Shown here: positions 44,936 to 48,130 of the stretch, one piece after another | How positions within the stretch are numbered: the stretch's first letter is position 1 | How the letters are laid out: the number at the start of each line of letters is the position of its first letter | From: Bacteroidota bacterium | GTDB taxonomy: Bacteria > Bacteroidota > Bacteroidia > Bacteroidales > Lentimicrobiaceae | Direction of reading: 5' to 3' | Assembly (NCBI GenBank): GCA_009773515.1 | Contig: WSXX01000001.1 | Coordinates: 124,001-188,000, forward strand | Length of the DNA stretch: 64,000 nucleotides | Notes under the pieces: generated by a model | What the model saw: the letters and a program-made list of their open reading frames with translations, nothing else | What the model was told of the DNA's origin: nothing | Database searches by the model: none | Program-made: the position numbers and the translations under genes

Positions 44936-45084
44936 AGTGATTCATAGTAAAACTTTTAAAATAACTTCCGATATACAGGAGTACCACCTCTGTCTCCCAT
45001 TATGCTGTGACATTGCTGCTAATGACAGATTATTCCTTTTATCGCTGAATAAAGTATTAATTGGTTGAAAATTGATCGTTTAGT

Positions 45085-45187
45085 CCTTCGACTCCGCTCA
45101 GGAGGACATCGTATATAATTGATATTAAGTACATTAAGATGATGCCGTGTACACTTTAAACGAATGTCACACTGAGCGGAGTCGAAG
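45085..45187. repeat. 103-bp REP/BIME-like inverted-repeat element
   Basis: CCTTCGACTCCGCTCAG (45085-45101) opposes CTGAGCGGAGTCGAAG (45172-45187). The interior (GGAGGACATCGTATA ... TGTACACT-like ... ATGTCACA) matches the copy at 48595-48697, which has exactly the same length. It lies in the 525-bp gap between the kinase and the small secreted protein; the rest of that gap has no gene. Confidence 0.9.
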
Positions 45188-45401
45188 TGTTTAAACGCAT
45201 AATTTAACTGTCATCTCCGAATCACACCCATTTTTTTTGAGCATCAACTCAGCACAAAAGGAGGAGTAGAGAGGGATATAAAAAATTCAAAACTTCAGAG
45301 TTCTTTTGATATTTTCCCCCAAAAATAGAAATGCATTTATTTTTAACAGCACCTTAACAGTTATTAACGGTTTATTAACAAGCCATCCTTTTGATAAGCC
45401 T

Positions 45402-45433: not shown

Positions 45434-45754
45434 ATGAAAAAAGTAATAGTAACATTATCCGTATTTGCGTTCTTGTTTGCATTCTCAGGAATCTCCATTG
45501 ATGCCAAAGCAGGTGAAGTAAGTTTCTACTCAGTAAACTACACCGGCGATGAAAATCCAAATCTTGACGGAACAAAGAAAGCAGCTAAAGCCGATGGCAC
45601 CAAAGCTGGTTGTGGCGATAAATCAGCCAAGGCATCTTCGGGCGATTGCAGCAAATCATGTGGTGATAAATCAGCCAAAGCTTCTTCAACCGAAGCTGAA
45701 GGCAAAAAGGCTACAACTGCAACTGCTGCAGTAGCTGCACCTGATGTAAAGTAA
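45434..45754 (+). CDS. Small secreted Ala/Lys/Cys-rich repeat protein
   Basis: 106 aa from the ATG at 45434, which begins the signal peptide MKKVIVTLSVFAFLFAFSG. The mature part is low complexity with two exact repeats of CGDKSAKASS separated by GDCSKS, giving three cysteines, and an Ala/Thr-rich tail. Family not recognised. It has its own promoter and terminator and is divergent from the kinase-regulator operon, so it may be controlled by it. Possibly periplasmic or surface; metal binding is only a guess from the Cys/Lys/Asp content. Confidence 0.78.
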   Translation: MKKVIVTLSVFAFLFAFSGISIDAKAGEVSFYSVNYTGDENPNLDGTKKAAKADGTKAGCGDKSAKASSGDCSKSCGDKSAKASSTEAEGKKATTATAAVAAPDVK

Positions 45755-45776
45755 TCAGAATTTAACTTCTGAAAGA

Positions 45777-45804
45777 AAAAGCCCTGCAAGTTGCGGGGCT
45801 TTTC
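45777..45804 (+). terminator. Intrinsic terminator
   Basis: AAAAGCCCTGCAA and TTGCGGGGCTTTT form a long stem with a minimal loop, a typical strong terminator that also works on the other strand. Confidence 0.9.
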
Positions 45805-45923
45805 TCGTTTTATGCAAAAATATTAACAAAAAATACTGGACTGTATCCTCCTCTTATATGTTTGCAAATTCAAATGAAGTTGTTTTTTTTCTCAACTTTG
45901 AGGTAAGGAGGTAAATCCCCCTT

Positions 45924-46050
45924 AGTACAATGATACTGTGGATAAGTATCTCCCCCTTTCAAGTTGAGTTCGTGGTATAACTTGGTACTTGATACCGTAT
46001 TTTATAAGACTGAACGATGCTTGTTTTTTTAACCATTTAACTCTACAAGA
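45924..46050 (+). ncRNA. Candidate IS110 bridge RNA region
   Basis: Non-coding left end of the element. Hairpins: GATACT (45932-37) with AGTATC (45945-50), and GGTAT (45974-78) with ATACC (45992-96). Short matches: TCCCCCTT (45951-58) equals the flank sequence at the left junction; GGATAAG (45940-46) is the reverse complement of CTTATCC at the right junction; GGTATAACTT (45974-83) equals the right end of the element (47512-21); GTACT (45986-90) is the reverse complement of AGTAC at the left end. This is what guide loops would look like, but loop boundaries were not folded. Confidence 0.45.
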
Positions 46051-46052
46051 TT

Positions 46053-47477
46053 ATGGAAAAGAAAGAACTTTTTCTTGGGATTGATGCAAGCAAAGGGTAT
46101 GCTGATTTTGCCCTAATGGATGCTTCTCTTGAATTAACAGAGCCATGTTTTCAGCTAGATGACACGAATTCAGGGCACGAAAAGTTGAGAGAGATCATTG
46201 AAACTTATTTCCTATCCAACCCAGAGATGACGTTTTATTGTGGGATTGAAAGTACTGGTGGATATGAAAGGAACTGGCTAAACTACCTGTTATTATTAGG
46301 CGTCAGGTATAAAATGAAGTCGGCTTTAATAAACCCTGCGCTTGTTAAAGGAATAAGCAAAGCAGCACTTAACCGGAGTATTACGGATGAAACTAGTGCC
46401 ATAAACGTTGCACTATATCTTGCTAATTTTAAAAAAAAAATCATCTACCAACAAGATGATGGACAACAACAAAATCCTTTTGAAAGTGGCCGGTCACTTT
46501 ACACTTATCAAAAAATGATAGTCAAGCAAAGCGTCCAGCTTCAAAATCAACTTGAGAAGATAATCTATCAGCATTTTTCAGAAGCCCTTGTTTATTGTCG
46601 GCAGGGGATGCCCATGTGGTTGCTGAAAGTTTTAAACAAGTATCCATCAGCAAATGATATTTGCAGAGCAGGCACATCAAAACTTATAAAGATTAAAGGA
46701 GTGAGCGAACAACGGGCACAGGAGCTGATAATAAAGGCAGAAAAAAATAACCAGTATTGCGACCGGAATATCATCTTTTTAATCAATCGCACAACCGATC
46801 AGATTATTCATAAAGAGGAAGAGATAGCTGCCATAAATAAATTTATGGCCAAGCAGTATTCACAGCATATATTGGTTAAACTTCTCAGTACAATTACTGG
46901 CGTTGGCCCAATAACGGCAATTTTAATTCTGTTTGAAGTAGAGAATATAAACCGATTTGCAACCGTCAAAAAACTTGTTGCATACTTTGGGTTAAACCCT
47001 GAGTATAGAATAAGTGGCGATGGAAAATGGGGGAATCACTTATCTAAAAAAGGCAGGAGAACGATGCGGGCACGATTATACATGTGCTGCCTAACTGCTA
47101 TTCACCGGGACCCTATGATGAAGCAGCTCTATGCCAGGTATAAAGGAATGGGCAAAGATCATTACTTTACAATGGGAGTATTAATGCATAAAATGTTGAG
47201 AGTTATCTTCGGAGTACTCAAGTCGGGGAAACCCTATGATATTGCCATCGATCAGCAAAATAGGGAAAAGGCCTCGGAAAAACAGGAAGATATTGAACAA
47301 CAAAAATTGCAGCAAATAAGGGAAAATCGGAAGAAAAGCAGAAGGTATCTTTCCGCGAACAATGAGGATGTAGCACCGATCTCGAAGTGGAAATTCAAAA
47401 AAATAAAAGAACTGGAAACGTCCCAAGCACCTGAAAGTGCAGTAATACGGGATCGCTCCCAGCCCAGTCAAAAATAA
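46053..47477 (+). CDS. IS110-family transposase
   Basis: 474 aa. N-terminal DEDD (RuvC-like) domain: LGIDASKG (Asp11), CGIESTGGYERNWL (Glu66), SITDETSAINVALYL (Asp112 region). A central coiled helix (SVQLQNQLEKIIYQHF) leads to the C-terminal Transposase_20 domain ITGVGPITAILILFEVENINRFATVKKLVAYFGLNP with RISGDGKWGNHLSKKGRR carrying the catalytic Ser region. The tail is Lys/Glu/Gln-rich and longer than usual. Recombinases of this family use a bridge RNA to choose donor and target. The gene looks intact. Confidence 0.93.
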   Translation: MEKKELFLGIDASKGYADFALMDASLELTEPCFQLDDTNSGHEKLREIIETYFLSNPEMTFYCGIESTGGYERNWLNYLLLLGVRYKMKSALINPALVKGISKAALNRSITDETSAINVALYLANFKKKIIYQQDDGQQQNPFESGRSLYTYQKMIVKQSVQLQNQLEKIIYQHFSEALVYCRQGMPMWLLKVLNKYPSANDICRAGTSKLIKIKGVSEQRAQELIIKAEKNNQYCDRNIIFLINRTTDQIIHKEEEIAAINKFMAKQYSQHILVKLLSTITGVGPITAILILFEVENINRFATVKKLVAYFGLNPEYRISGDGKWGNHLSKKGRRTMRARLYMCCLTAIHRDPMMKQLYARYKGMGKDHYFTMGVLMHKMLRVIFGVLKSGKPYDIAIDQQNREKASEKQEDIEQQKLQQIRENRKKSRRYLSANNEDVAPISKWKFKKIKELETSQAPESAVIRDRSQPSQK

Positions 47478-47522
47478 TAAATTATTTTGACAAAATTGTT
47501 TGGTTTTTTACGGTATAACTTA

Positions 47523-47623
47523 TCCCCCTTTCGGGAAAGGGGGACGATACATTGTTGGTTTTTAGATAGTTGGGGGATGCTATTGGGTGTGGCTAGCGGG
47601 TTCTCCCCCTTTCCAAAGGGGGA
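47523..47623. repeat. Pair of CCCCCTTT...AAAGGGGG palindromes
   Basis: TCCCCCTTTCGGGAAAGGGGGA (22 bp with a GG centre; 47523-47544) and CTCCCCCTTTCCAAAGGGGGAG (47602-47623), each a 9-10-bp perfect stem. A third copy is at 50969-50990. The first adjoins the IS110 right end. No gene is present between 47478 and 47719. Confidence 0.88.
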
Positions 47624-47699
47624 GTTAGAGGGGGTATCTGGCATGACAGATGGAGATTTCATTCAGGGAAGATATTTCAAAAGTTTCATTTTATGCAGT

Positions 47700-47707
47700 T
47701 ATCTTTG
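47700..47707 (+). promoter_or_regulatory. -7 box TATCTTTG
   Basis: Exact TAnnTTTG match 13 bp before the OsmC start at 47720; the longer frame from 47693 would start upstream of it. Confidence 0.6.
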
Positions 47708-47719
47708 CAGCAAAAACAA

Positions 47720-48130
47720 ATGGATACGACTGCTACTCTGGAATATCTGGGCGACTTGCAGCTAAAAGCAACGCATACCCGCTCGGGAGAATTTATCATT
47801 ACCGATGCTCCGGTTGACAACAACGGCAAAGGTTCGGCTTTTTCACCAACCGATCTTATGGCTACATCGCTTGGACTCTGCATGATCACCATTATGGGAA
47901 TTGCTGCCAATAATTCAGGTTTCAGCATTGAAGGCACCAAAGCAAGAGTAAAAAAAATTATGGCTTCCGATCCACGAAGGGTTGGCGAAGTGGTGATTGA
48001 ACTTGATTTTCCGGATCACAACTACTCCGAAAAACAAAAACAGATCATAAAGCAGTGCGCCAAAATATGTCCTGTTTCGCAAAGCCTTCACCCCGATCTG
48101 AAACAAACAGTGACCTTTAATTTTTCATGA
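47720..48130 (+). CDS. OsmC/Ohr family protein
   Basis: 136 aa from the ATG at 47720 (MDTTATLEYLGDLQLKATH). FSPTDLMATSLGLCMITIMG contains the first peroxidatic cysteine and KQCAKICPVSQSLHPD the second, as in OsmC-type thiol peroxidases acting on organic hydroperoxides. Cytoplasmic. The gap to the following thioesterase gene is only 9 bp, so they form a two-gene operon driven by the box at 47700. Confidence 0.9.
   Translation: MDTTATLEYLGDLQLKATHTRSGEFIITDAPVDNNGKGSAFSPTDLMATSLGLCMITIMGIAANNSGFSIEGTKARVKKIMASDPRRVGEVVIELDFPDHNYSEKQKQIIKQCAKICPVSQSLHPDLKQTVTFNFS

Follow-up and report, generated by a model that had tools for sequence, protein, structure and literature searches.

An IS110-type insertion sequence lies intact at positions 45853–47520 of the window, which is the whole stretch of 64,000 nucleotides analysed here, and we consider it highly likely that this element carries a two-loop bridge-type guide RNA in its 200-nt left end and targets a repeat by way of a CT core dinucleotide. 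In other words, the element very probably uses a small RNA of its own to find a repeated sequence of the genome. The recombinase gene tnp (46053–47477) follows a left end resembling those that encode bridge RNAs; all features described below are on the plus strand. What is new here is the recombinase clade to which the element belongs, in which the fourth aspartate of the DEDD tetrad is replaced by serine.

The boundaries, the guides, the stem-loops, the dependence of the flanks on the guides and the differing positions of near-identical relatives were all established by comparing sequences. The comparison draws on 80 relatives kept from 100 found in a genome-contig scan with alignment, by means of the motifs D[VA]SKGYAD and TGGYE[RQN]NW and likeness to the window element; a genome-contig scan with a single protein and a scan of viral contigs yielded no relatives. 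L092 is the contig of L003, and L085 carries the element of L026.

Extent of the element and its target

The region upstream of tnp is common to the window, to L003 and L026 from the same order and to the 80 relatives of the scan. Within the sub-branch of the window the relatives begin with CTTATATGTTTG, whose counterpart in the window is 45853–45864, and in other sub-branches the element starts with CTTGTATG or CTCGTATG. The left core was placed by this conserved start and by the complement of the right donor guide (RDG), the right core (47519) by the left donor guide (LDG) and the right target guide (RTG). When cut at their CT cores, the sister pairs L029/L030, L031/L032 and L064/L090 are 92–94% identical over the full length. 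L029 and L030 diverge immediately outside the cores; the two other pairs have a few target-like letters in common beside the core, extending to at most ~11 nt on the right side, and diverge beyond these. Since sister elements are alike between the CT cores and unlike outside them, the window element spans the cores from 45853 to 47519, and with the left core at 45853 its left end (45853–46052) measures 200 nt rather than 129. The extreme left end, CT-TATATGTTTG (45853–45864), comprises the CT core, the right-donor sequence and one half of a −7-like promoter (TAnnTTTG, 45857–45864), and the right end (47499–47518) comprises TTTG (47499–47502) and the donor sequence TACGGTATAA. The tnp stop and the right core are 41 nt apart. 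Of 53 inverted pairs listed, the longest 25 were inspected, and none of these joins both ends.

The initial annotation had the element start at AGTAC (45924), with the RTG ahead of the left target guide (LTG) in the manner of IS1111 and with a junction promoter TTGGTT-N18-TACAAT. The strings that it quoted are indeed where it located them (GGTATAACTT at 45974–45983 and 47512–47521, TCCCCCTT at 45916–45923 and 45951–45958, GGATAAG at 45940–45946, CTTATCC at 47519–47525), and these short matches speak for such a start, as do the 12 nt left of 45923, whose fit to the target repeat equals that of the 12 nt left of 45853 (10/12). A reversed guide order is also real in the seekRNAs of IS1111 elements, according to passages of PMC11187229. 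By itself, however, the flank-repeat match is ambiguous for the left end, 45853, 45923 and 45958 each reaching 10/12 over the 12 nt to their left, because the guide resembles its own target. What makes a start at 45924 very improbable is that the relatives carry the counterpart of 45853–45923 inside the element, beginning with CTTATATGTTTG or a variant, that L029 and L030 share 92% identity between such cores and no longer match immediately beyond, and that the flanks of the relatives support the order LTG-RTG.

With the left end at 45853, position 45924 falls inside the RNA and several of the earlier assignments change. The stretch TCCCCCTT at 45916–45923, taken for the left flank, is located in the LTG, and its second occurrence at 45951–45958, taken for a guide, shares positions with the 3′ strand (45947–45953) of the stem of the target loop. 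AGTAC and GTACT, proposed to pair as donor end and guide, belong to the stem-loops of the target loop and the donor loop, respectively. The suggested promoter depended on the wrong left end, and the guide order that had appeared odd becomes the one described for IS621 in parts of PMC11208158. The stretch proposed for folding, 45924–46052, starts 71 nt into the left end and, as a single sequence, folded no better than shuffles (z 0.04).

The right flank (47521–47548) lies within an interspersed palindromic repeat of which the host genome has 13 separate occurrences with up to 2 mismatches, including that in the window (a 14th row is an other-strand reading of one of them), in agreement with the palindromic target suspected earlier. 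The repeat is centred on CCCCCTTTCnnnAAAGGGGGACGAT and is carried by congeneric genomes too. In the congener G018 the uninterrupted repeat reads GTATCCCCCTCTTATCCCCCTTTC, and the flanks of the window element joined at the core, GTATCCTCCT-CT-TATCCCCCTTTC, differ from it at 1 of 24 positions. The CT core, which the initial annotation had correctly guessed, is present at both ends (45853 and 47519), and by comparison with the repeat of the congener the insertion is scarless. On this reading the target in the host is the interspersed palindromic repeat ATCCCCCT-CT-TATCCCCC... The host assembly contains a single match to the element and no second copy.

A locus of G018 (same genus), L169, was considered as an empty site. 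As far as it is readable, the neighbouring genes have neither repeat nor element between them, and the locus is therefore unsuitable as a clean empty site. At L169 a gene similar to 45434–45754 of the window adjoins a gene that we take to be OsmC-like. In the window, 45434–45754 encodes a small protein whose start is signal-like and in which Cys-Gly-Asp-Lys-Ser-Ala-Lys motifs recur. A further inverted-repeat-like stretch, ttcgactccgctcag ... ctgagcggagtcgaag, is found at 45080–45190, upstream of a small gene.

Guides of the predicted bridge RNA

Read from 45853, the left end would encode, in this order, a 5′ stem-loop, the LTG, a stem-loop, the RTG, the LDG, a further stem-loop and the RDG. 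The 5′ stem-loop (AAGTTG...CAACTT, 45877–45898) is predicted from the letters of the window. The target-binding loop is bounded by GGAGGTA (45907–45913) and TATCTCC (45947–45953), which can pair with each other, and contains the LTG ATCCCCCT (45915–45922), the stem-loop AGTACAATGATACT (45924–45937) and the RTG GTGGATAAG (45938–45946). The donor-binding loop (45959–46023), with the basal stem TCAAG/GCTTG at its ends, contains the LDG GGTATAACT (45974–45982), the stem-loop GGTACTTGATACC (45984–45996) and the RDG TATAAG (46003–46008). Such a two-loop RNA in a long upstream non-coding end is what characterizes the IS110 group; the downstream RNA and the subterminal inverted repeats of 7–17 bp that mark the IS1111 group were not found, the RNA here being upstream and the ends being unconnected by any of the 25 longest inverted pairs.

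The guide-bearing part of the left end can be aligned in 77 of 81 elements, the window included; L079, L086, L100 and L101 stand outside the alignment, the LDG-like motif being absent at the expected place. In an alignment of 52 less similar sequences, from which 13 named rows and near-duplicates had been left out, covariation is seen in the stem of the donor loop and in both stem-loops. In the donor stem-loop, the innermost pair is a standard one (G-C, A-U, U-A or C-G) in 51/52 sequences (shuffled mean 26.7); in the target stem-loop, whose gaps were re-placed by one fixed rule prior to counting, two pairs are standard in 50/52 each (shuffled 28.2 and 25.0). RNAalifold proposed 13 pairs, 10 of which show changes on both sides and none of which lies in the target loop as aligned by MAFFT. 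Covariation is weak in the basal stem of the target loop: the inner four pairs are standard in 46, 48, 52 and 49 of the 52 sequences, two of them above every shuffle, and the outer four in 31/52, 37/52, 30/40 and 32/39, none above every shuffle. In the window this stem is 2 nt off the register of the alignment. A search of 45500–48000 against Rfam gave two matches below the gathering scores and none in the RNA of the element.

Across the relatives, the flanks depend on the guides. Of 76 rows, 63 had a left flank (62 unique) and 62 a right flank (51 unique and complete); flankless rows and duplicates in guide and flank were taken out ahead of the permutation tests. The LDG had served to pick right ends, and the RDG or a loose left-end motif to pick left ends, the target guides never being used; the two core positions match by construction, and the scores refer to non-core positions. 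The RTG agrees with the right flank at 4.96 of 7 positions compared with 1.88 in permuted pairs (sd 0.157; maximum of 20,000 permutations 2.63; n = 51), and the LTG agrees with the left flank at 4.81 of 7 compared with 2.59 (sd 0.143; maximum 3.23; n = 62), the LTG score being the best of two registers in true and permuted pairs alike. We give hardly any credence to the idea that the left-end RNA is merely a leader or attenuator whose guide matches arose by chance; nothing was found in its favour, and it is already contradicted by the guide-flank dependence, which exceeds that of permuted pairs by ~15 standard deviations for the LTG and ~20 for the RTG. The flank of the element itself was the best or tied-best partner for 40 of 51 RTGs and for only 32 of 62 LTGs, and 11 of the 62 LTGs scored at most 3/7 with two registers (7 with three). 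Five RTG positions beside the core match in 92–96% of the 51 elements, compared with 24–39% in other pairs, and the last two match in 8 and 16%, which indicates an RTG of 7 nt with the core included.

The donor guides behave similarly. For a non-circular test of the LDG the right end was located by a unique RTG 7-mer, which was possible in 49 of the 76 rows; LDG and right end were identical (6/6) in all 49, with ten different letter strings (permuted 4.91). The match of GGTATAACT to the right end, first seen in the window, is thereby generalized, and that of GGATAAG to the right flank is likewise borne out by the relatives. The three non-core letters of the RDG agree with the left end in 61/67 cases (TGT 33, TAT 22, CGT 6), the mean agreement being 2.88 compared with 2.28 in permuted pairs; here the left end was found with the loose motif CT[CT]NTA, which makes no use of the RDG, although it predetermines one of the letters compared. 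The guide order is LTG, RTG, LDG, RDG, which is that of IS621. The initial annotation had named flanks unrelated to the guides, or an unconserved left-end structure, as evidence against its proposal of a left end with donor and target guides; in the relatives examined the flanks do depend on the guides, the structure is conserved and the stem-loops covary.

Some individual elements deserve mention. L029 and L030, from contigs of Gillisia and Salegentibacter, are 92% identical and have changed both target guides and flanks; their RTGs each fit their own flanks at 5/7 and their LTGs at 3/7 and 5/7. L096 and L097 are 98.8% identical copies with different flanks in one MAG, with frame trouble in both recombinase ranges. 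In L094 and L095 (Cloacimonadota) the core is CA rather than CT, and RTG and RDG end in the matching TG, a natural change of core. In L037 the right flank matches the RTG at 0/7 and CTTATATG, the start of a left end, stands in its place, which looks like the leftover of a junction or a tandem copy.

In the window copy, the RTG (complement CTTATCCAC) matches the right flank CTTATCCCC at both core positions and at 6/7 further positions, the LDG is identical to the right end at 47512–47520, and the RDG is the complement of CTTATA at the left end. The LTG matches the left flank ATCCTCCT at 7/8 positions and the same stretch in the repeat copies at 8/8, but it lies 2 nt closer to the stem-loop than a core guide allows. 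It scores 3/7 in both usual registers and 6/7 in a shifted third one, a register hardly used in the set as a whole (2.15 compared with 1.91 permuted, sd 0.134). Loss of 2 nt after insertion is one possibility. The copy could then be a relic, with an LTG that has slipped by 2 nt and no longer aims at the repeat around the element, for example, as a guess, through loss of CT from an ancestral ...CCCCCTCTTAG. The register shift, the lone match to the element in the host and the presence of the core CT within the LTG of most relatives would all fit, but we find this doubtful, the recombinase ORF being open and the three other guides all matching. By inspection, L075, L076 and L085 likewise have letters other than CT at the core-guide position.

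By analogy with IS621, the RNA of an element guided in this way would be expressed and would bind, a circle would form and strands would be exchanged. The first RNA loop would pair with the target, the LTG binding the bottom strand on the left side of the core and the RTG the top strand on the right side, and the second loop would pair with the joined ends of the element, the LDG with the right end and the RDG with the left end. The recombinase would then join circle and target at the CT dinucleotide. At the predicted circle junction of the window element there is a promoter-like TTTG-N20-TATGTTTG; TAnnTTTG is the −7 promoter motif of Bacteroides. Among the 20 elements with a GTA-type donor, 17 have TATGTTTG in the left end and 1 has TTGAC among the final 30 nt of its right end; the corresponding numbers for the 37 other elements are 3 and 31, and most of these 37 show a spacing of the TTGACT-N17-TATGTT type. 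As two sets of promoter-like motifs are split by donor type, one junction geometry seems to have been adapted to two kinds of sigma factor.

A recombinase clade with serine at the fourth DEDD position

The gene at 46053–47477 encodes a protein of 474 aa with matches above cut-off to PF01548 (35.5 bits, cut-off 29), PF02371 (74.5, cut-off 21.3) and NF033542 (149.7, cut-off 140), confirming its earlier assignment to IS110, and also with a helix-hairpin-helix match. When its AlphaFold model (mean pLDDT 88.4) was compared by Foldseek, 11 chains of IS621 and ISCro4 ranked first, with a target-normalised TM of 0.56–0.60 and 19–20% identity.

The catalytic residues of IS621 are D11, E60, D102, D105 and S241; mutating any of them abolishes recombination, and D105 holds a metal-bound water, as reported in parts of PMC11208158. 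D11, E66 and D112 are present in all 76 members of the clade counted here and the catalytic S321-G322 in all 73 that reach these columns. At the position equivalent to D105, the fourth Asp of DEDD, 74 of the 76 have Ser115, the window protein among them, and 2 have Ala, compared with Asp in 57/57 other IS110 proteins (21 order relatives, 27 phylum relatives and 9 plasmid records). The E66 column reads Y in 10 of these 57, which we take for an alignment shift at the Y-E-A-G motif. Positions 37, 115 and 323 are outside the search motifs. L096, L097, L103 and L106, with at least 15 stops in the translated range, are outside the protein counts, L026 was dropped as the same element as L085, and L041, whose N-terminus is missing, was left out of all counts. 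Since the DEDD tetrad, which is defining for IS110, was examined and found incomplete in the window protein (D11, E66 and D112 being present), we file this element, which belongs to the IS110 family by sequence models, as a divergent variant that would work like IS110 elements.

A tree was built from 40 of the 76 clade members and 30 of the 57 outsiders, 70 proteins in all. The clade forms one side of one branch, with a support of 100/99 and recovery in 100% of 200 bootstrap trees. As the relatives were found through motifs and by likeness to the window element, intermediates without these motifs would have escaped, and it is to be expected that a single clade results. The contigs of the clade are labelled Bacteroidota, Balneolota, Ignavibacteriota, Desulfobacterota, Cloacimonadota, Fibrobacterota, Acidobacteriota and others. 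Among the titles listed in searches of open-access papers, none concerned an IS110 clade without the fourth Asp; the analysis in PMC11187229, according to part of that paper, kept only proteins with the DEDD motif.

Sister elements that carry these residues and are nearly identical to one another occupy different places, from which we infer that the clade is active. The alternative, that it is catalytically dead and is mobilised in trans by other IS110 enzymes, would agree with the abolition of recombination by mutation of D105 in IS621 (parts of PMC11208158) and with the internal stops or frame trouble in 15 of the 80 translated ranges. We think it improbable, given the different places of the sister elements and the occurrence of Ser115 in 74 of 76 proteins alongside invariant D11, E66, D112 (76/76) and S321-G322 (73/73).

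As to how an active clade might do without the fourth metal-site Asp, we hypothesize, with somewhat less than even confidence, that its carboxylate is now supplied by Asp37, located where the third strand of the RNase H fold ends, possibly helped by Asp323. Asp37 is invariant in the clade (76/76), and the same column of the outsiders has no Asp, Asn in 27/57 and Glu in 1/57. In the AlphaFold model it comes after strand 33–36 and before helix 39–55, and in RNase HI a catalytic Glu occupies roughly the equivalent position. Against such a relocation, the outsiders do have Asp in the neighbouring columns 36 (6/57) and 38 (5/57), where the alignment is loose. Asp323, next to the catalytic Ser-Gly, is found in 73/73 clade members and 3/57 outsiders; the notion that it is exclusive to the clade was dropped, as there are outsiders with S-G-D and an intact DxxD.

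Relation to known guide-RNA systems

The closest parallel is with IS621 (PDB 8wt6–8wt9), for which passages of PMC11208160 and PMC11208158 describe RuvC and Tnp domains, a catalytic Ser-Gly, an RNA in the left end, the guide order LTG, RTG, LDG, RDG, a CT core, a repeat (REP) as target and a promoter at the junction, where the window element has a promoter-like sequence in its predicted junction. The window protein differs in its length (474 aa compared with ~326), its 19–20% identity and its helix-hairpin-helix match, and its clade in the Ser for the fourth Asp and the invariant Asp37 and Asp323. The RTG, in the set of the window, has 7 nt including the core throughout. The IS1111 group and seekRNA elements (ISEc11 and others) are likewise relatives with a DEDD-type recombinase and a guide RNA, but there the RNA is mostly downstream of tnp and the guide order reversed (passages of PMC11187229), whereas here the RNA is upstream and the order is not reversed. 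ISEc21, a member of the IS110 family with an upstream non-coding region and a protein of 358 aa, is similar by its description in part of the same paper, with an upstream RNA in which the bottom-strand match is 5′ of the top-strand match. As to TIGR-Tas, residues 238–346 match NF052498 at 35.3 bits, well under the cut-off of 100.

The present comparison indicates that a distant branch with a longer recombinase follows the same guide logic as IS621, and it supplies 50–60 natural pairs of guide and target, including near-identical elements with changed guides such as L029 and L030. It is a surprising finding that a residue reported to be essential in IS621 is replaced in nearly all members of an evidently mobile clade. 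Either the metal site is built differently in these enzymes or, given a suitable context, they can do without the fourth Asp, and both would bear on the engineering of bridge recombinases.
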